Origin: Thermodesulfovibrio yellowstonii DSM 11347
GTDB lineage: Bacteria; Nitrospirota; Thermodesulfovibrionia; Thermodesulfovibrionales; Thermodesulfovibrionaceae
DNA length: 64,000 nt
NCBI RefSeq assembly: GCF_000020985.1
Contig: NC_011296.1
Span: forward strand, 248,001-312,000
Direction of reading: 5' to 3'
Shown here: positions 40,054-59,814 of the stretch, piece after piece
How positions within the stretch are numbered: the first letter of the stretch is position 1
Layout of the letters: every line of letters begins with the position of its first letter
Made by a program: the position numbers and the translations under genes
Notes under the pieces: generated by a model
What the model saw: only the letters and a program-made list of their open reading frames with translations
Databases searched by the model: none
What the model was told of the DNA's origin: nothing

Positions 40054-40069
40054 TTATGACAGAGAAAAC

Positions 40070-40163
40070 CCCCTTGTGGAACTGGTTCCACAAAGGGGTA
40101 TGCAAGCGAAACCGTTTCGTTTGCAAACCCCCTTCTGGAAAATTTTCCAGAAGGGGGTTTTTT
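40070..40163. terminator. Three consecutive hairpins, the last a strong terminator
   Basis: Hairpin 1 (40070-40098) pairs CCCCTTGTGGAAC with GTTCCACAAAGGGG, one bulge. Hairpin 2 (40101-40125) has 12-base arms around CGAAAC-C-GTTTCG with one wobble. Hairpin 3 (40125-40160) is a perfect 36-bp palindrome with AAACCCCCTTCTGGAAAA arms followed by six T. It isolates the origin region from the tnpB-relaxase transcript. Hairpins 1 and 3 are related in sequence. Confidence 0.7.
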
Positions 40164-40170
40164 CTTTCGG

Positions 40171-40190
40171 TGCATTAATAGATATAGATA
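40171..40190 (+). promoter_or_regulatory. TGCATTA...TATAG motif before the TnpB-like gene
   Basis: TGCATTAATAGATATAGATA starts ten bases after the hairpin-3 T run and ends just before the AGGAGG site of the tnpB-like gene. There is no -35 box: poly-T occupies that position. Confidence 0.6.
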
Positions 40191-40208
40191 CAAAAAAAAG
40201 GAGGATTT

Positions 40209-41819
40209 ATGGGCAAAGAGGTGGCAGGAGACATGATAACGATACAGACTAAACTTGCTTTTTCAAATATAGAAGATAAGCAAGCTGTAGTAGATTTAAT
40301 GAGAAGATGGTCATCCTGTATGAGATTTGCGTACAACAGGCTTTTAGAAGATAAAAGCAGGAACGAACTTAAAAGAAAACTTCAAGAGGTTTTTAACATA
40401 AACTCAAGATATGTAGACGATGCAATAGCAAAGGCAAAAAGCATGCTTCATTCTTATAAGGAGAAGGGCAAAGATCCGAGTAAGGTTATATTTGGTGGTA
40501 GGAGTTTGTTTGAAAAGCTCAAAAAACGACACATAAACGGAAAGGCTTACAAGAAATTAAAACAAATGTGGCAGGAAAAAAGAAAGGGCAATCTCTACTC
40601 AAGAGGAGATAGAAGTAAGAAGGGAAATCTGAATGCAAGGATTGAGAGAAATGAAAATGGCATTTATCTAAGGATCAATATAGGAGAGAGAAAGTATGCC
40701 TATGCAAAGATACAAGCAGGATGGAAAAAAGGAAAAAGCAGAGAAGAACTGCTTAAAGCAATCGGTACTTGTGGGGAAGCTTATTCAGTTGAATTAAAGC
40801 TAAAAAATGGAAAAATATATGCTTACTTTGCTATTAAGGAAAACTCTCCAGAAACTTTAGTAACAAAAGAAAACGGTGTCATAGGCATAGACATAAATGC
40901 ATATCCTGATAACATAGCGTGGGCAGAAACGGATGTGAATGGACAGCTTGTAAGTTACGGCAAGATACCGATGCCGTGTCTTACAAGCGGCAGTTCAAAC
41001 AAAAGGGAATATTACAGATGGCTATATGCCCATGAGATAGTAAAACTGGCAGAGGAAAGAAAGAAAGCAATAGTAATTGAGAGATTAGATATAAAAAACA
41101 AAGGAAGAAGAGGAGATTACTCTGGAAGGAAGTCAAGAAGAATAAGGCATAACTTTAGTTATCGATCCTTCTTAAATAAGCTCAAGGTTTTAGCTCAGCG
41201 GAAGGGTATACAGGTTATAGAAGTTAATCCCGCCTATACCTCAGTGATAGGGCTTCTGAAATATGCACCGCAGTATATGATAAGTAAGGACGTTGCAGCA
41301 GCATATGTCTTAGCAAGAAGAGGACTTGGACTAAAAGAGCAAATCCCTGACGGATATATGAAAGTTATAGAACATTTAAATGTTGATGACTTAGATAGAC
41401 TGAAGGATTATATAAAGAAAGTAGTTAAGAATAGATATTTAAAGAGAAAACATTTCAAAGAGATAGAAAGGGTCAAAAATCTTATACAAAACCTTAAGAG
41501 TGAGTCAGGGAGGGTGTCAGGGCCTCTGGATGGAACAAGTCTTGGCACTTGTAGCAGTAGCTACAAAACCTGGCAAGTTCTTAAGGTAGCGGTGGTAACA
41601 CCACTCTCCCCTGAGAAAACGTTAAGAGATGTCTCTGTCCTAAGGAGAATAATACATTTAGGGCAAGTGGGGAGACCTTGGCATGGGCGTAAGTTCCTGC
41701 TTCTTGGGGCGGGGGCTATGGTTGTTCCAAATACCGCCAGCTGGGGATGGAACAACCTGAAAGGCGGTAAAAAATACCCCAGCCGTTTAAACTTGTACAG
41801 TTTTGTACAGTTTAAGTGA
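40209..41819 (+). CDS. TnpB-like (IS605 OrfB family) RuvC nuclease without zinc finger
   Basis: 536 residues. A helical N-terminal half is followed by a split RuvC domain with an intact triad: Asp228 in GVIGIDINAYPDN, Glu291 in AIVIERLDIK and Asp361 in ISKDVAAAYVLARRG. The CxxC...CxxC ribbon usually found between the last two motifs is absent; EVNPAYTSVIGLLKYAPQY passes straight into the third motif, as in the TnpB-related branch. Residues after about 430 are unlike protein domain sequence and coincide with strong RNA hairpins. No TnpA transposase is adjacent. The stop lies 13 bases before the relaxase ATG, and both follow one promoter motif. ATG 40233 is an alternative start. Confidence 0.8.
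   Translation: MGKEVAGDMITIQTKLAFSNIEDKQAVVDLMRRWSSCMRFAYNRLLEDKSRNELKRKLQEVFNINSRYVDDAIAKAKSMLHSYKEKGKDPSKVIFGGRSLFEKLKKRHINGKAYKKLKQMWQEKRKGNLYSRGDRSKKGNLNARIERNENGIYLRINIGERKYAYAKIQAGWKKGKSREELLKAIGTCGEAYSVELKLKNGKIYAYFAIKENSPETLVTKENGVIGIDINAYPDNIAWAETDVNGQLVSYGKIPMPCLTSGSSNKREYYRWLYAHEIVKLAEERKKAIVIERLDIKNKGRRGDYSGRKSRRIRHNFSYRSFLNKLKVLAQRKGIQVIEVNPAYTSVIGLLKYAPQYMISKDVAAAYVLARRGLGLKEQIPDGYMKVIEHLNVDDLDRLKDYIKKVVKNRYLKRKHFKEIERVKNLIQNLKSESGRVSGPLDGTSLGTCSSSYKTWQVLKVAVVTPLSPEKTLRDVSVLRRIIHLGQVGRPWHGRKFLLLGAGAMVVPNTASWGWNNLKGGKKYPSRLNLYSFVQFK
41510..41785 (+). ncRNA. Candidate structured guide RNA (omega/reRNA-like) overlapping the tnpB 3' end
   Basis: TTGTAGC/GCTACAA (41549-41566, AGTA loop), GGTGGT/ACCACT near 41590, and AGAGA/TCTCT near 41624 form local hairpins. 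At the end three helices cross each other: GGTTGTTCCA (41720) with TGGAACAACC (41748), TACCGCC (41732) with GGCGGTA (41763), and GCTGGGG (41740) with CCCCAGC (41777). TnpB guide RNAs are known to come from exactly this position, the tnpB 3' end. Boundaries are estimates. Confidence 0.5.
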
Positions 41820-41832
41820 CCAGGAGTGAACT

Positions 41833-44800
41833 ATGTTAAGTTTTGGTCAAATTTACCAAAGTCTTGAACAGTATGAAAAAGATAATTACTACGTTTCAAC
41901 TAATGAAGTAGAGACACGCTTTCAAATTGGTTCGGGATGGCAAGAGTTGGGGGTAAAAGATGGCTATGAAATCACTTCAGAGGACTTCAAAAATTTTGCA
42001 AATGGAAGGGACTTACAAGGCAATTATCTTAGCAAGGAATTTGAACAGAAAGATCACCGTCAGGGGTTTGACTTCGTATGGAGTCCTCATAAGTCTGTAA
42101 CACTCTATGCTTTCACCTCTGAAGAGAATCTGCAAACTGTAACAAACAGTATGAATGAAGCAACTAAAAATTTGGTCAACTTTCTTGAGAAAGAGGGCTA
42201 TATTCAATATCGTGAAACTGTGAATGGGGAAACTATTTCAAAGTCAAGTGACAATGCAACCGTTCTGGTTAATACCCATCTTTGTGGACGATTAGACCCA
42301 CAAATACACAACCACATTTCTTTTTTCAACTTCACCAGGACAGAAAATGGTGACTGGAAAGCAATTAACTCTGATGCAATTTATAGCAATAAATACATGT
42401 TTGAAGCATACCTTGAGAATCAGTTAGCGTATCAGCTTAAACAGCAAGGAATAAATACTGAACTTGTAAAAGAGGGCAATAGTAAGGAATATGTGACAAA
42501 AATAGCTGGATTAAATGAAGAACATTGGAAAGGTATAGCGAGGACTTCTGAGCTAATAGACAAGTATCTTGAGCAACATAAAGAAGAGCTACTTCAGAAA
42601 TATCCGAATGCTACTGAAAGTCAACTCAGGGAGTATGCATATCTTGAAATTAGACAATCAAAGCAGAGCAAGACTATTGGTGAGCTTTTCAAGCAAGTTG
42701 AAGACTCTTTAAAAGAACAGGGATTAACTCAACAAGATATAATCAAGCTTGTAAGTGAAAAGAGAGAAAATCTAACTCAAGAATTAAATCAAGCTAATAA
42801 AGAAGAACTTGCGAAAGAGATAATCAACAAAGCAATTGATGAAGTCATAGATAGAAATTCAACATTCAGTCAATCTGATCTTTTTAAAGCTGCATTCCAA
42901 ATCAGTGCTGGTCGAGTGGATTCTGATACGCTTGTGCAGGCTGTGAAGGAGAATGAGAGACTTATTGAAATGGGGTATGTGCAAGATAAGCAGCATAACA
43001 GAGCAAATGCAACATATCAGGAAAAGTATTTTACTTCTCAGGAGGTCATTGCATGGGAGCATAACATATTAAAGAGCATTGAAGAGGGGAAAGGTTCAGT
43101 TGAAAAAATAACAGAGCAGAGATACGAAAATGAGAAGCTAACCAAATCTCAACTTGAAGCTATCAATCATATCCTTCAAAGTACTGACAGATACACTGCC
43201 GTTGTAGGCTGGGCAGGTGTCGGAAAAACAACGTTTGTTGGCGAAATGTCGAAAGAGCTTGGAAAAATTAATGAAATTGCTAAAGAAGCTGGATATCGGC
43301 TTATAGGAGTATCTAACACAAACACGGCTGTGAACGAGTTAAAAGAAGTTGGTATAGAAGCGATGACTACTGCAAAGTTTTTGAACTCTGCAAAGGCACT
43401 GCAGAGCCTTGACTCTAAGACAATTCTAATCGTTGATGAAGCAAGTTTTCTCTCAACTAAAGACATGTCGACTATTCTGGATAAAACAAGGGAATCAGGC
43501 TGTCGGATAGTATTTATTGGTGATGACCGTCAGCTGCCTGGAGTTCAGGCTGGCTCTCCATTTGCGGCTTTGATTCGTGAAAACAAAATCAACCACGTCA
43601 AAATGACTGATATTGTAAGGCAACGCAACGAAGAGCTTAAGAGTGCTGTATATGACATATACCACAAAAACATTGAATCTGCACTTAATAAAATTACTTT
43701 CAAAACTATAGAGAGGGATTCGGCTCTTGAAATTGCTACGCATGCACTTAAAAGCGATAAACCAATCAATATAGTAGATAGAGAAATCTTTGAAAAAGTA
43801 AAAGAAATGTTTGAAGGTCAAGGCTCTGCTACTCAATATGTTCAGCAGTTTAAATCTGCACCGTTTGAACGTGAAATAATAGAGAAACTTGGCATAGAGG
43901 ACGCAGGACAGAGAGAAGCTTTCTTTTTCTACAAAGATTTCGGTTTTCATGAAGGTGAAAATCCTCATGGAATAAAAGAGGATCAAGCTAAAAAAAGTAT
44001 TAGGCAAATGATTAAAATGGGCTGGGTAGTAGCTACAGAGGTAGAGGTAAATGGCAAGAAATATGGGGCATATCAAAAGACTGGATTGTTCGGGGTTGAC
44101 CCATCTCGGATTAGAGAAGTTCTCGGTGAAAAATATGAGGAGTATCAAAAGCAAATAGAGCAGCAACAAAAGGAAATTCTGCGAGAGATAGCGAAAGAGT
44201 ATATAAGTCAAGGCTATAAAAATTCTGCCATATCTGTAGCTACAAATCAGGACGCTAAAATCTTAAACAGTTTAATCAGCGAAGAATTGCGGAATGGCGA
44301 GCTTAAAGGGGCTAAATCTATAGAGGTAAATGTGTGGGTAAACAAGAATTTAGATAATGTAGAGAGGCTAAAGGCAAGTAGCTACAATGTTGGCGATAAA
44401 TTACTTGTAATGTCTTCGGGCGGTGGAGTTAGCGTTGGAAAAGAGCTTTTCGTGAAAGAAGTTGATATTGTCAAGAATACTTTAAAAGTAGAATATACAA
44501 CAAAGAAAGGTGAAGTTAAAGAAAGAGTTTTCAATATCGAAAAGCTTGGTGACAAGGTTCAGGCTTTTCAGAATGAGAGCATTCAAATAGCAGAAGGAGA
44601 GAAATTGATATTCAATAATACATATAGAAATAAAAACTTTGCAAATTCTGAGTTTGCTTATGTGAAGTCTATAAATAATGAGGATGGTTCTATAACTATA
44701 GTTTCAAAACTTGATTCAGACAAAGCTAAAACTACAACATTCACAAAAGAAGAACTTGCTCAGGGTGTTCATTTTCAGCATGGCTATGCAGTGACAGCTG

Positions 44801-47703
44801 ATCACATGCAAGGGAAAACTACCCAGAATGTCATAGCGTTTGAAACAAGAAACTATGAGAATTTCCTCGTTTCAATCACTCGTGCAAAACAGAATGCGAC
44901 TATATACTCTACTATGAGCAAAGAGAGATTCATTGAAAAAGCATCAGAAGAGGCAACGAAGGAAAGAATAGAAAGGATGGCATACAAATTCAACGAGGAA
45001 GTGTTTAATACCGTAAAAGAGCAAATATATAAGAATTTCAAACAACAGCAAGAGCAGGTAAAAGAGCAAGGATTTGAAAATGAAAGAGAAGGGCAATTTC
45101 AGAAACAAGAGAGCAAAGAACAATCAGAGAGATACCAGGAATCAGTTTTTTGGGCGTCAGAGGCTATAAAAAACTACGAAAAATCAGAGTACCAAAAATG
45201 GGCTAAAAATTTCAGTGAAAAAGATTTCAAAGCAGTTCAGAAACCTCAAAAGCCAAACATTGTTAAGAAAATAGCAAATGCAATGGTGGATTCAAATTAT
45301 GTTGATAGAAAGTTCAAGGACTGGCTAAATGGAAAGACTCGGGATAAATTTGAGAAATGGACATTAAAAGATCAGATAAAAACATGGTGGAAGAATAACC
45401 TAAACCGTGACCTGGAAAAACTCACTGGCCAGAAAAGAAGAGACTACTGGAAGACTTACGAGGTTTATACAAAAGACCAAAATGGACAGTGGCATAAAGG
45501 AATTCAAAAACTGCATGTGAGAGTCAGAGGGGATAAGACCACCATTGAGGGCTATACTCTTACAAAAGATGGAATCCATTACTTTAAAATAGAAAAACAA
45601 AAAGGACTTTTTGGCATAGAGAAAGTTCTTGATCAGAGTATGGAGTTTGCACCTCACCAGCTATCTCCTGTTCAGCAGATTGCAGCAGTAGGAGCTCAGA
45701 AGCCTGTTATCCAGCATGTTGAACCCCCTAAGCTTGAGAAATACTTCACTCCTGCCCAGATGAAGAACATCCAGGATATGGCCAGAGAAATAGTCCAGAA
45801 ACAACAGGAAAAACAGCAAAAAATATCAGAAGTTCGTGAGTATGAGCAGAAATCCCATGAACATATTCGTGAACCAATCCAGAAATGGCAGGAGATGGTT
45901 CAAGCAGGGGATAGGTTTAACGAGGTACTCGCCAATACGTGGCAGAAATGGCAGTCACAGGCTCAGAATGTTAGAGAGTTTATCATTCAGAAAGACAGAA
46001 CAACCAATAAAGAGATATTCCAGTGGTCAAAAGAGAATCAGATAGGTAAAGAAGTTGTATTAGCTACCACCAGAGAAATGCAGGATAAAGGACTTATATG
46101 TGTAGAATCCTACGATGAAAAAACCAGGACTATCACCTTTATCTCAGCCTCAAAACTTTCTGAACAACAGAAAGCTATATCTAAAGCAGTAGAAAGCATA
46201 TATAGAAATTCCTCTAAATGGAGTTTTTCTCTAAAAGACATAAAAGCAGAATTGAAACGCTCCGGAGTTGATGCAGCAGACAGGACTATATATAAACACC
46301 TAAGCAGCATGGGATACAAAAAAGACGATAAAGGACGATTCCACTTTCTCAACGATTCTATACATGTCAGGCAGGATAGAGAAATCATTTCTGTTTTTGC
46401 TGAAAAAACCTCTGGAAAAGGATATTTCACTGCGTCAGAGTTACACAAAAACATATCTCACATTCACCATATCCATCCTCAAAGGCTTGAAAAGTATCTA
46501 CACGAAGAAAAAACACTCAAACTGATAGGCTTTCAGAAAAATTCAGATGGAAAATTAGAAGCTATTTTCTGTCACAAACAGGACTATGAAAATTCTAAAC
46601 AACATTGGCTTAATTCAATCGCCTCTATACCTCAGAAAGCAGACGAACAACTGGTCAGATTTTATATTGAAAAAGAGGGCATTTCGCCCTGGAAAAATCT
46701 CACAAAAGATCAATTACAAAAGCTACAGTCCGAATTCAAAAATGCAGGAGTGAATGAAAAAAAGGGATACTTTTTTTCATGTGTTGAAAGAGTGCAACAT
46801 CAGATGAGAGAAACAGAGATTCAAAGAGTCATGCAGACCATTCGTTTTATGACAGAACGAATGCAGCAGTCACAACAGCAGCAAGAACATAGTCTGGCCC
46901 AACAAAATGTTCAGATAGACAGGGAGGTTCTAAAAATGCATTCTATGTTGAACCGAAATATTCAATACGATATTACACATGAAGAGTTTCAAAGGGTTAA
47001 GGAGTATATGGATACCCACAATGGCTCTGTTGTTGCTATGCAAAATCCACCTCAAAATGAAAAGTATTCTTCGGTGCTATATACTACCAAAAAGGATATA
47101 TATATGGAAAAGGCTATGGCAGAAAAAATCGGAGTGAAATATCAGAATGAATCTACAGCTTATTTCTCATCCAAAGACCTCGTTTCAAATACAGGACTCG
47201 GAAAGGACAAAATAGACCAAGCTATGCACAAAATGTTCAGATCTGGCTGGGTTATTCCTGTTACAGTTTCAACAGACAAAAAACTATATGGTGCATGGCA
47301 AAAAACCTCTTTGTATGGGGTTGACACAGAACGGGTAAAAGAAGCATATGGCAAAGAGAAAGAAAAAGTGGTCCAACAGCTTAAAGAAGAATGGAAAAAA
47401 ATAAAAGCACAGGAACAGGGAAACAAAAAGGAAAAGGACTACATTTCAAAAACTGACATCCGAAATGAACTCAACAATGAAGTTCACACAAAAGCTATAT
47501 CAGAGGGGATAAAAAGAAGTCTGGATGGCAACATTATTTCTGAACATAAAATAACAATCAAAACTAAGGAATCAGATTCCAAAGAAGTTACGGTCTACAA
47601 ACCTGCCCAGTCTATCGAAAAATCCCAGTCACAAAGTCATGAAAAATCAACCAACCCCTCTCAGGATAAGACAGCCTCAGTCTCAATGGAACGAGGCAGG
47701 TAG
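41833..47703 (+). CDS. MobF-family conjugative relaxase-helicase (TraI/TrwC-like)
   Basis: 1956 residues. The N-terminal relaxase has tyrosines at 8, 14, 19 and 20 and the metal site H149, H159, H161 in the pattern HLCGRLDPQIHNH. The RecD-like helicase has Walker A GWAGVGKTT (459-467), ILIVDEASFL near 530, GDDRQLPG and DIVRQR, and the late motif VTADHMQGKTTQ near 989. A module ending GAYQKTGLFGVD (about 695-776) is inserted in the helicase and recurs near the C-terminus (about 1776-1856, GAWQKTSLYGVD). The long C-terminal part contains several winged-helix-like segments. It nicks oriT and unwinds the transferred strand. ATG follows AGGAGTG. Confidence 0.93.
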   Translation: MLSFGQIYQSLEQYEKDNYYVSTNEVETRFQIGSGWQELGVKDGYEITSEDFKNFANGRDLQGNYLSKEFEQKDHRQGFDFVWSPHKSVTLYAFTSEENLQTVTNSMNEATKNLVNFLEKEGYIQYRETVNGETISKSSDNATVLVNTHLCGRLDPQIHNHISFFNFTRTENGDWKAINSDAIYSNKYMFEAYLENQLAYQLKQQGINTELVKEGNSKEYVTKIAGLNEEHWKGIARTSELIDKYLEQHKEELLQKYPNATESQLREYAYLEIRQSKQSKTIGELFKQVEDSLKEQGLTQQDIIKLVSEKRENLTQELNQANKEELAKEIINKAIDEVIDRNSTFSQSDLFKAAFQISAGRVDSDTLVQAVKENERLIEMGYVQDKQHNRANATYQEKYFTSQEVIAWEHNILKSIEEGKGSVEKITEQRYENEKLTKSQLEAINHILQSTDRYTAVVGWAGVGKTTFVGEMSKELGKINEIAKEAGYRLIGVSNTNTAVNELKEVGIEAMTTAKFLNSAKALQSLDSKTILIVDEASFLSTKDMSTILDKTRESGCRIVFIGDDRQLPGVQAGSPFAALIRENKINHVKMTDIVRQRNEELKSAVYDIYHKNIESALNKITFKTIERDSALEIATHALKSDKPINIVDREIFEKVKEMFEGQGSATQYVQQFKSAPFEREIIEKLGIEDAGQREAFFFYKDFGFHEGENPHGIKEDQAKKSIRQMIKMGWVVATEVEVNGKKYGAYQKTGLFGVDPSRIREVLGEKYEEYQKQIEQQQKEILREIAKEYISQGYKNSAISVATNQDAKILNSLISEELRNGELKGAKSIEVNVWVNKNLDNVERLKASSYNVGDKLLVMSSGGGVSVGKELFVKEVDIVKNTLKVEYTTKKGEVKERVFNIEKLGDKVQAFQNESIQIAEGEKLIFNNTYRNKNFANSEFAYVKSINNEDGSITIVSKLDSDKAKTTTFTKEELAQGVHFQHGYAVTADHMQGKTTQNVIAFETRNYENFLVSITRAKQNATIYSTMSKERFIEKASEEATKERIERMAYKFNEEVFNTVKEQIYKNFKQQQEQVKEQGFENEREGQFQKQESKEQSERYQESVFWASEAIKNYEKSEYQKWAKNFSEKDFKAVQKPQKPNIVKKIANAMVDSNYVDRKFKDWLNGKTRDKFEKWTLKDQIKTWWKNNLNRDLEKLTGQKRRDYWKTYEVYTKDQNGQWHKGIQKLHVRVRGDKTTIEGYTLTKDGIHYFKIEKQKGLFGIEKVLDQSMEFAPHQLSPVQQIAAVGAQKPVIQHVEPPKLEKYFTPAQMKNIQDMAREIVQKQQEKQQKISEVREYEQKSHEHIREPIQKWQEMVQAGDRFNEVLANTWQKWQSQAQNVREFIIQKDRTTNKEIFQWSKENQIGKEVVLATTREMQDKGLICVESYDEKTRTITFISASKLSEQQKAISKAVESIYRNSSKWSFSLKDIKAELKRSGVDAADRTIYKHLSSMGYKKDDKGRFHFLNDSIHVRQDREIISVFAEKTSGKGYFTASELHKNISHIHHIHPQRLEKYLHEEKTLKLIGFQKNSDGKLEAIFCHKQDYENSKQHWLNSIASIPQKADEQLVRFYIEKEGISPWKNLTKDQLQKLQSEFKNAGVNEKKGYFFSCVERVQHQMRETEIQRVMQTIRFMTERMQQSQQQQEHSLAQQNVQIDREVLKMHSMLNRNIQYDITHEEFQRVKEYMDTHNGSVVAMQNPPQNEKYSSVLYTTKKDIYMEKAMAEKIGVKYQNESTAYFSSKDLVSNTGLGKDKIDQAMHKMFRSGWVIPVTVSTDKKLYGAWQKTSLYGVDTERVKEAYGKEKEKVVQQLKEEWKKIKAQEQGNKKEKDYISKTDIRNELNNEVHTKAISEGIKRSLDGNIISEHKITIKTKESDSKEVTVYKPAQSIEKSQSQSHEKSTNPSQDKTASVSMERGR

Positions 47704-49069: not shown

Positions 49070-50782
49070 ATGAAAGAGGGTTACAAAGAGGCAAAAACCT
49101 ATAAAGGCTTTGAAAAGTGGTTTCATGAGTTGCAGATGAGTTTTAAGATGCACGTTTACACGTTCATGATAGTGTTACTTATTCACTTGCTTATTCCTGC
49201 AGTTTATATGATTTTATTTCAGCCAAAACTGCTTGGAACAGTGATTCAGGTTTTCACTGGTTTTTATGTGCAGTTATGGCCAAAGGCATTAGAGGTTTTA
49301 TTCAAAAAAGGCTTCTGGATATTTCTTCTTGCCACTCCTGTATGGCTACTGTATCCGATATTGCTTACTAAGTTTAAGTTGAAAGCAAAGGCAATAGTAA
49401 AAGATGAACACATGAGAGGGCAGAGGATAGTTGAGCCATCTGAATTAATATCGCTTATAAGGAGAGACCATCCTCAAATCGGAATATTTCATATAGGCAG
49501 AATACCGATACCAAAGCAGTATGAGACGACACACTTCTTTGTGGTAGGTAAGAGTGGTTCAGGAAAAACCACAATGTTGAATCAGGTTATAGAAAAAATT
49601 AGACAAAAAAAGCATAAGGCAGTAATCTATGACACCAAAGGAGACTATATAGCAAAATTCTACAATCCAGAAAAAGACCTCATATTCAACCCTCTTGATA
49701 GCCGAACCCTACATTGGAACATATTTGATGAACTCTATCTTGTTAGTGACATTGAGTCTTTCGCTTATTCTCTGATTCCACCAGTACCAAGTGGGCATGA
49801 AGATGAATATTTCATAACAGGAGCAAGAGAGGTTTTTTATTCTATCCTCTATTATCTTTATGCCACCAACCAAAGAACCATGTCTGCTTTATGGCAAACA
49901 GTTTCACAGGGAGAGGCAGGAGTGATTGAAACCTTAAAGACAGCAGTGAACCACTACAAACTTGATGACTGCAAAAGAGGTTTAGGATTGCTTGAGGGAT
50001 ACGAAAAAGGAGTGAAATCAGCAAGTGATATTATTTCCACCATGAAGAAATACAGTAACTGTTTTAAGTATGTAGAACACCACCAGAGTAGTTTCAAAAT
50101 TCAGGACTGGTTAACCAAACAAGACAGTGGATTTCTTTTCTTGGTGAACTATGACAAAATCAAAAACGTGCTAAAGCCTCTTGCTTCAGTCCTTCTTGAA
50201 CAACTTGGCAATGCAGCCTTGACTTTGCCAGATGATAGAGAAAGACGATTATTCTTTGTCTTAGATGAATTTGCCTCACTTCAGAGAATGCCAAAGTTTG
50301 TAGACTTCCTTGAGAGAGGTAGAAGTAAGGGGATCTCTCTCTGGATAGCCACGCAGGATATCAACCAGATAGAGAAAGAATATGGCAACCGAACCATGAA
50401 CACAATCATAAACAACTGCACAACTACGGTAGCCTTTGCAGTGCAGGATGTAAACACAAGTGAGTATCTTTCAAAGTTTCTTGGTGATAGGGAGATTCTT
50501 GAAACTGATGAATCTCTCTCTATGGGACCAGCAGACCTCAGAGATGGATTAAGCCTTACAAGACGGAGAAAGACAGACAGGCTAATTCTTCCAAGTGAGT
50601 TTGCTTTACTTCCTGTATTTCATTTCTACATCAAGATTGGTGAGTACCCAATATCAAAAAGCCGAATAGACCTGAAAATATACCCAGATACCCAGCCAAG
50701 CTATATTCCTGATGAAAACAGGTTCAGAATAGCAACTGTATCGGAACAGTCAGAACAGGCTCAGGAGCAGGTAATCAAGTGA
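49070..50782 (+). CDS. TraD/VirD4-like type IV coupling ATPase
   Basis: Inner-membrane ATPase that presents the relaxase-DNA complex to the secretion channel. 570 residues. Two N-terminal membrane helices (about 26-50 and 82-103), Walker A VVGKSGSGKTT near 160-168, the AVIYDTKGDY motif, Walker B FFVLDEFASLQRM near 396, and ISLWIATQDINQIEKEYG, all standard for the TraD/TraG family. The C-terminal tail is Gln/Glu-rich and short. Despite its presence no channel ATPase (VirB4/TraC) is found in the element. Confidence 0.93.
   Translation: MKEGYKEAKTYKGFEKWFHELQMSFKMHVYTFMIVLLIHLLIPAVYMILFQPKLLGTVIQVFTGFYVQLWPKALEVLFKKGFWIFLLATPVWLLYPILLTKFKLKAKAIVKDEHMRGQRIVEPSELISLIRRDHPQIGIFHIGRIPIPKQYETTHFFVVGKSGSGKTTMLNQVIEKIRQKKHKAVIYDTKGDYIAKFYNPEKDLIFNPLDSRTLHWNIFDELYLVSDIESFAYSLIPPVPSGHEDEYFITGAREVFYSILYYLYATNQRTMSALWQTVSQGEAGVIETLKTAVNHYKLDDCKRGLGLLEGYEKGVKSASDIISTMKKYSNCFKYVEHHQSSFKIQDWLTKQDSGFLFLVNYDKIKNVLKPLASVLLEQLGNAALTLPDDRERRLFFVLDEFASLQRMPKFVDFLERGRSKGISLWIATQDINQIEKEYGNRTMNTIINNCTTTVAFAVQDVNTSEYLSKFLGDREILETDESLSMGPADLRDGLSLTRRRKTDRLILPSEFALLPVFHFYIKIGEYPISKSRIDLKIYPDTQPSYIPDENRFRIATVSEQSEQAQEQVIK

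Positions 50783-59738: not shown

Positions 59739-59814
<76 letters not shown>

Follow-up and report, generated by a model that had tools for sequence, protein, structure and literature searches.

In ISDra2, an element of the IS200/IS605 group with a Y1 transposase and the target-adjacent motif (TAM) TTGAT, the right-end RNA (reRNA) shares sequence with the 3' end of tnpB and takes its guide from the flanking DNA. TnpB has also given rise to TldR proteins, RNA-guided repressors acting on gene expression. IS607 elements insert at (G)GG without target duplication by exchange of a GG dinucleotide, and their ends bind the transposase TnpA (PMC6188088). For 23 IS607 TnpBs with RAGATH-18 reRNAs the TAM is AGGAG or GAGGG, and in ISFba1 a 187-nt scaffold is followed by a 20-nt guide (PMC11061315). 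IStrons combine IS607 with a group I intron and use GG-ending targets (PMC4227781). Here we compared with these systems the 3' end of a tnpB gene in a 64,000-nt stretch of Thermodesulfovibrio yellowstonii DSM 11347 (contig NC_011296.1, positions 248,001–312,000 of the forward strand; hereafter the window, to which all coordinates refer). A previous inspection of the bare letters, the sequence-only reading, had proposed a TnpB guide RNA at this position. Comparison with related genomes makes it likely that the right-end RNA is the reRNA scaffold of an IS607-type tnpB transposon and also a leader for the invaded host gene, and that its distal module was repeatedly kept alone before other genes.

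The closest likeness is to the RAGATH-18-derived reRNA of ISFba1 (PMC11061315), which shares the IS607 context, an RNA just 3' of tnpB, a 3' guide, a pseudoknotted scaffold and a purine TAM (AGGAG or GAGGG) close to the GGAGG found here. The ISFba1 scaffold of 187 nt contains two pseudoknots and does not overlap the coding sequence, whereas the candidate scaffold here spans about 335 nt, mostly over the open reading frame (ORF), and ends in a different 3' module; the TnpB proteins are about 490–536 aa long, compared with 387 aa in ISFba1 (PMC11061315). No Rfam match pointed to RAGATH-18 (Rfam 15, whose inclusion of RAGATH-18 was not checked). Group B IStrons are alike in their IS607 parts, their GG-ending target and a structured RNA thought to render the insertion harmless (PMC4227781); unlike in IStrons, no intron was found here, the insertions are at gene starts, and the host leader would be replaced rather than spliced.

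The boundaries of the element were read from an empty site. In a sibling species of the same genus (G011), the relaxase flanks are 99.7–100% identical to those of the window over 2.4 kb (L236, G011:C63), and ...CAAAAAAGAGGGGG is joined directly to AGTGAACTATG, whereas in the window the element stands between ...CAAAAAAAAGGAGG and AGTGAACTATG. The element therefore comprises positions 40205–41824 (1620 bp, plus strand, no tnpA here), inserted without target duplication between the Shine-Dalgarno sequence (SD) and the ATG of a TrwC-type relaxase gene (41833–47703, plus strand). The relaxase SD, GGAGG (40200–40204, plus strand), is the insertion motif and the predicted TAM; it now lies 4 nt before the ATG of tnpB, which appears to use this captured signal. 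At the right terminus, CCAGG (41820–41824, plus strand) takes the place of GGAGG, with the spacing of an SD to the host ATG. This boundary is common to the copies: five genomes bearing TnpB homologues contain some 70 complete or partial copies of the 3' region, most of which share the final base, and conservation ends at ...GATGACCAGG. Inspection of the sequence after 41785 in other copies, which the sequence-only reading had suggested, thus placed the right end directly behind the structured region, followed by a flank peculiar to each insertion. Most full copies begin directly 3' of AGGAGG or a close variant. Only two differences were seen in the 758-bp left flank between G011 and the window (40190–40204), apparently both in the SD.

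A related copy (L050) carries a complete tnpA, a 199-aa open frame with YARVSTKKQ and AARIYGQKGG and a MerR-like N terminus, which ends where tnpB begins. Its N-terminal 45 aa matched MerR, and the match to the IS607 transposase model NF033518 (E = 4e-7) was below the cut-off. The assignment to IS607 is based on this serine TnpA with its MerR-like N terminus and on GG-target insertion without duplication, as read from occupied and empty sites; the serine transposase and GGAGG both differ from ISDra2. By analogy, the GG of CCAGG is presumed to be the IS607 exchange dinucleotide. The left boundary of the window copy corresponds to a CCAGG inside the tnpA end of L050, which suggests that the window copy was mobilised through a cryptic end.

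Insertion at SD sequences is not peculiar to the relaxase gene. We took 12 genes invaded in one genome and read 32 orthologous sites in sister genomes. GGAGG was found exactly at the insertion point in 22 of these sites and within a few bases in seven, and was absent from three, one of which carries a stand-alone module of the kind described below. From their N-terminal sequences, we take the invaded genes to include those for SerRS, AspRS, Rho, EF-P, MurD, RimM and IlvD. Where copies bear CCAGG, it mostly lies 6–9 nt before the start codon. The insertion motif is thus clear from the empty sites; it is of the same class as the published IS607 TnpB TAMs and constitutes a predicted TAM here. A distant homologue on the reverse strand (L015, G022:C53) keeps the upstream hairpin domain and the CCAGG end.

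The tnpB gene (40209–41819, plus strand) encodes 536 aa and retains the D-E-D residues of RuvC (GIDINAYP, IVIERLD and SKDVAAAY). The TnpB domain was matched above the cut-off by TIGR01765 and TIGR01766 and below it by NF040570 (68 of 100) and PF07282 (21 of 26.3). Identity with a TldR repressor was rejected because the RuvC site is not degenerate; in addition, unlike TldR, the copies are mobile and stand before unrelated genes. Relatives, most of them 73–78% identical, occur in the thermophilic Firmicutes Caldicoprobacter oshimai, Fervidicola ferrireducens, Thermovorax subterraneus and further bins. No homologue was found in viral contigs, and a PDB sequence search yielded no meaningful relative. 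A decayed tnpB with 46% identity and many stops in the genus of the window (L012/L016, G013:C46) represents an older invasion. Ten of 11 intact homologues terminate tnpB with a TAA that lies some 140–153 nt from the right end and precedes the interlocked helices described below. The window copy has lost this family stop, with CAT (41682–41684, plus strand) in its place, so that the frame continues to 41819 over sequence that is otherwise RNA only. The sequence-only reading had assigned the structure to the last 105 codons of the nuclease gene (41510–41785). Hairpins and helices are indeed there, but the structured unit is longer, running from about 41490 to 41824 and including a fourth helix, and from codon 492 on the stretch is coding in the window copy alone, since 10 of 11 homologues stop earlier.

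The three mutually crossing helices of 10, 7 and 7 bp that had been described in the order 1-2-3-1'-2'-3' are present as perfect helices within 41720–41783 of the plus strand. Helix 1 (H1) pairs 41720–41729 with 41748–41757 (10 bp), helix 2 (H2) pairs 41732–41738 with 41763–41769 (7 bp), and helix 3 (H3) pairs 41740–41746 with 41777–41783 (7 bp); the fourth helix (H4) is a terminal hairpin at 41786–41817, in which 41786–41799 pairs with 41804–41817. When any such interlocked triple was counted, just three of 3,000 dinucleotide-preserving shuffles of 41500–41785 contained one. The fold energy of the 356-nt region 41490–41845 was -134.4 kcal/mol, compared with -107.6 +/- 5.8 for shuffles (z = -4.6). 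A consensus fold of 29 copies paired consistently over the whole 3' region, with more long hairpins upstream of the distal part. On this basis we delimit a candidate reRNA (omega RNA) scaffold of about 335 nt (41490–41824, plus strand; 5' limit approximate), consisting of the long hairpins and a distal pseudoknot module of about 110 nt (41715–41824, plus strand). The terminal hairpin in several right ends (e.g. L023, L030, L041 and L045) contains ATGACCAGG, sometimes in frame with the host gene, where it could give the host protein an N-terminal M-T-R extension.

Homologous modules provided the covariation data that the sequence-only reading had called for. In an alignment of 30 modules, 94.4% of the cells expected to pair did so, compared with 82.3% after shuffling and at most 53% in slid versions, and 93 cells were changed on both sides, compared with 33 in shuffles. 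Changes on both sides affected eight of nine modelled pairs in H1, one of seven in H3 and five of eight in H4, in which 98% of the cells were paired. In H3, both partners differ in one pair (C-G to U-A) and a single partner in two others, three pairs are invariant, and the outermost pair was missing in 12 of the 30 modules. The CCGCC/GGCGG core of H2 is conserved and nearly invariant across homologues. Because H1 and H3 cross and both covary, a real pseudoknot is supported, more strongly on the side of H1 than of H3. Homologue changes that break the helices had been named as the outcome that would speak against RNA pairing, and the opposite was observed for H1, H3 and H4. The codon-position pattern is also flatter in this region: third positions account for about 58–61% of the differences between the window and its homologues in the core of tnpB, for about 36–46% in the tail and for about 27–46% in the module. 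Moreover, the ~335-nt 3' region is kept even in homologue copies whose frames are broken or that have lost large internal parts. Taken together, these comparisons demonstrate that selection on the 3' region acts at the RNA level and not on the peptide, in agreement with the earlier proposal that RNA pairing explains the unprotein-like translation.

Two explanations other than a guide scaffold bear on this structure directly. The region might matter as DNA only, either as the transposase-binding right end or as a chance palindromic stretch. IS607 ends bind TnpA (PMC6188088) and the module does lie at the element end, but we consider this explanation very improbable, as H1 has been maintained by compensatory changes in many sequences (the GGTTGTCCC, GAGTGCTT, GGCTTCCC, TTGCCTC and GCAGAGG types), which would be needless for a DNA-binding site, and is retained in stand-alone copies devoid of the left end. 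Even less credible is an IStron-like or other self-splicing element, which would excise itself and rejoin the SD to the ATG. Such an activity would be useful at exactly this position, and IStrons do join IS607 to a group I intron at GG-ending targets. In the loci searched, no group I or group II intron was matched at a threshold as loose as E <= 1; 58% of IStrons are intragenic (PMC4227781), in contrast to almost all copies here, which are at gene starts; the stand-alone copies lack the 5' part; and the left end of the window copy is a different one.

The distal module also occurs without tnpB, directly before the start codons of unrelated genes in thermophiles. A covariance model (R1) built from the distal 110 nt found matches in relatives of Caldicoprobacter, in nine of 26 genomes of the class of Fervidicola and, in a sample of 398 genomes of that phylum, in 21. 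Six genomes of the genus of the window also had matches. Sampled genomes, chosen for having matches, yielded 135 modules counted as distinct, some orthologous copies among them; an ORF started 25–110 nt downstream in 130 of these, compared with 50–63% in a loose control. In a strict 19-nt slot, an ORF start was found for 96 of 134 modules against a background of 7%. Two exceptions, L096 and L100, have the module directly before a selD-like gene with an in-frame stop, possibly a UGA for selenocysteine. Orthologous stand-alone sets precede a glycosidase-like gene (seven genomes), a 71-aa ORF (five) and an NrdR-like gene (three); in such sets the core is kept and H1 and H4 are restored by paired changes, while the flanks have diverged. 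The mean length of H1 in stand-alone copies was 8.6 bp, compared with 4.9 bp when arms were exchanged (duplicates included). The stand-alone set, part of which was gathered with a sequence pattern holding the H2 core constant, is therefore uninformative on H2 variation. The genome of the window contains a second copy of the module, a stand-alone one (L165, G000:C1:1362825-1362923) ending in TTAGGAGG before the 71-aa ORF, which is conserved, has no Pfam match and is arranged in the same way in several other species of the genus. A strong SD takes the place of CCAGG at the end of the copies before this ORF.

Identity of the module with a known riboswitch or leader class, such as a metabolite riboswitch, is unlikely, since Rfam gave no match and the downstream genes are unrelated: no match was found in the window at gathering thresholds, and 15 loci searched up to E = 1 gave only unrelated or chance matches. 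Sigma-70 promoters just upstream of stand-alone modules received no support (16 of 76, compared with 12.5 in shuffles), and a search for the 3' region in plasmids found no match.

The proposal of a TnpB guide RNA agrees with RNA-level selection, the position at the right end, the RuvC residues and a GGAGG in line with IS607 TnpB TAMs. It was incomplete in that the module occurs without tnpB before many unrelated genes, so that guiding cannot be its only role. One alternative is that the distal module is merely a cis-acting leader for translation or stability carried by the transposon, the guide scaffold being the upstream ~225 nt or another segment. The module without tnpB, nearly always next to a start codon and also in genomes that yielded no close TnpB homologue, would fit such a leader, as would the distant G022 homologue, which keeps the upstream domain and differs in the distal part. 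On the other hand, full and internally deleted copies hold the module at their extreme right end, and an reRNA, which must be continuous with its guide, would contain it. We regard this leader-only explanation as possible but doubtful. Somewhat less likely still, stand-alone modules could be trans-acting guide RNAs of non-autonomous elements, serving a TnpB encoded elsewhere in the genome, and not leaders. Short copies with a left end and CCAGG (L078 and L080, and a decayed one in L099) and the many stand-alone modules in genomes that also carry tnpB would be expected in this case. In the genus of the window, by contrast, relatives for which no close TnpB homologue was detected retain the module at a single locus, where it ends in a strong SD, not CCAGG.

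From these patterns we infer reRNA and guide function, nuclease activity and the leader role. The most likely identity of the ~335-nt RNA is the scaffold of the TnpB reRNA, and the guide would come from the host flank just past the element end. The predicted 20-nt guide AGTGAACTATGTTAAGTTTT (41825–41844, plus strand) would span the relaxase start codon, its boundary being set by the empty site and its length by ISFba1; the earlier placement of a guide in the stretch leading into the relaxase start agrees with the element end at 41824, from which the flank runs into the start codon. The element inserts directly 3' of GGAGG, which is usually the SD of a gene. By analogy with known TnpB biology, TnpB is predicted to cut empty sites made of GGAGG and a start codon, which would retain or spread the element. 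Since the element separates the SD from the ATG, its structured end, with the pseudoknot, the terminal hairpin and CCAGG at SD distance, would also have to serve as leader of the host gene. Replacement of GGAGG by CCAGG may leave an SD-like AGG and remove the predicted TAM, in which case TnpB would spare its own insertion. Once tnpB has decayed, the module of ~110 nt at the distal end could stay as a stand-alone leader.

Several observations weigh against this combined role as scaffold and leader. The distal module has been retained where no close TnpB homologue was detected, as in five of the six genomes with R1 matches in the genus of the window, so that its role could be purely cis-acting. 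As an SD, CCAGG is weak, and in some of the stand-alone copies no clear SD is seen. The G022 homologue has a different distal module and no obvious gene start nearby. The invariance of H2 deprives it of a test by covariation, which thus does not demonstrate the coexistence of all three helices. The length and the 5' end of the reRNA are guesses, and a TnpB structure predicted from a 12-sequence alignment was too poor to be used (mean predicted local distance difference test score, pLDDT, 41). Finally, the G011 empty site reads GAGGGGG instead of GGAGG, so that the motif in the window changed before or after insertion. The A of GGAGG looks derived in the lineage of the window, as the outgroup G003 has AAAGGGGG. 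Escape from the TAM is not claimed as the cause of the altered SD in G011, since the outgroup suggests that GGGGG is ancestral.

More broadly, a thermophile lineage of RNA-guided transposons may target SDs with a pseudoknotted RNA end that is both guide scaffold and portable translation leader, preserves the function of the invaded and often essential gene, and has been repeatedly kept by hosts as a new class of cis-acting RNA; we consider the arguments for and against this generalization to be evenly balanced. If it holds, a TnpB element could insert before essential genes and leave them functional by targeting the ribosome-binding site and supplying a replacement leader. This would explain the SD-like look of the published IS607 TnpB TAMs, a link not found in the open-access papers searched; the terms "ribosom" and "start codon" do not occur in PMC11061315. 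It would also predict precisely which guides and targets a thermophilic TnpB has. The module adds a structured RNA that had not been described, at least 135 distinct copies of which occur, almost all of them next to the start of a gene.

The tnpB element lies within a likely integrative conjugative or mobilisable element (38147–59814) that contains a VapE-like protein, the TrwC relaxase, a NikA-like protein (48248), a TrwB coupling protein (49070–50782), two phage-type integrases (55396 and 58672) and a tRNA gene (59742–59814). A plasmid-borne TnpB nuclease is able to work as a gene drive directed at empty copies (PMC11870625), and by analogy such an action could likewise hold on this conjugative element. 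Upstream of the relaxase gene, both here (40060–40165) and in G011, there are three consecutive palindromes (CCCCTTGTGGAAC.., GCAAGCGAAAC.. and CCCCCTTCTGGAAAA..) preceded by AGCTC and CTTTTC repeats, possibly the origin of transfer (oriT) or a replication origin of the integrative element.
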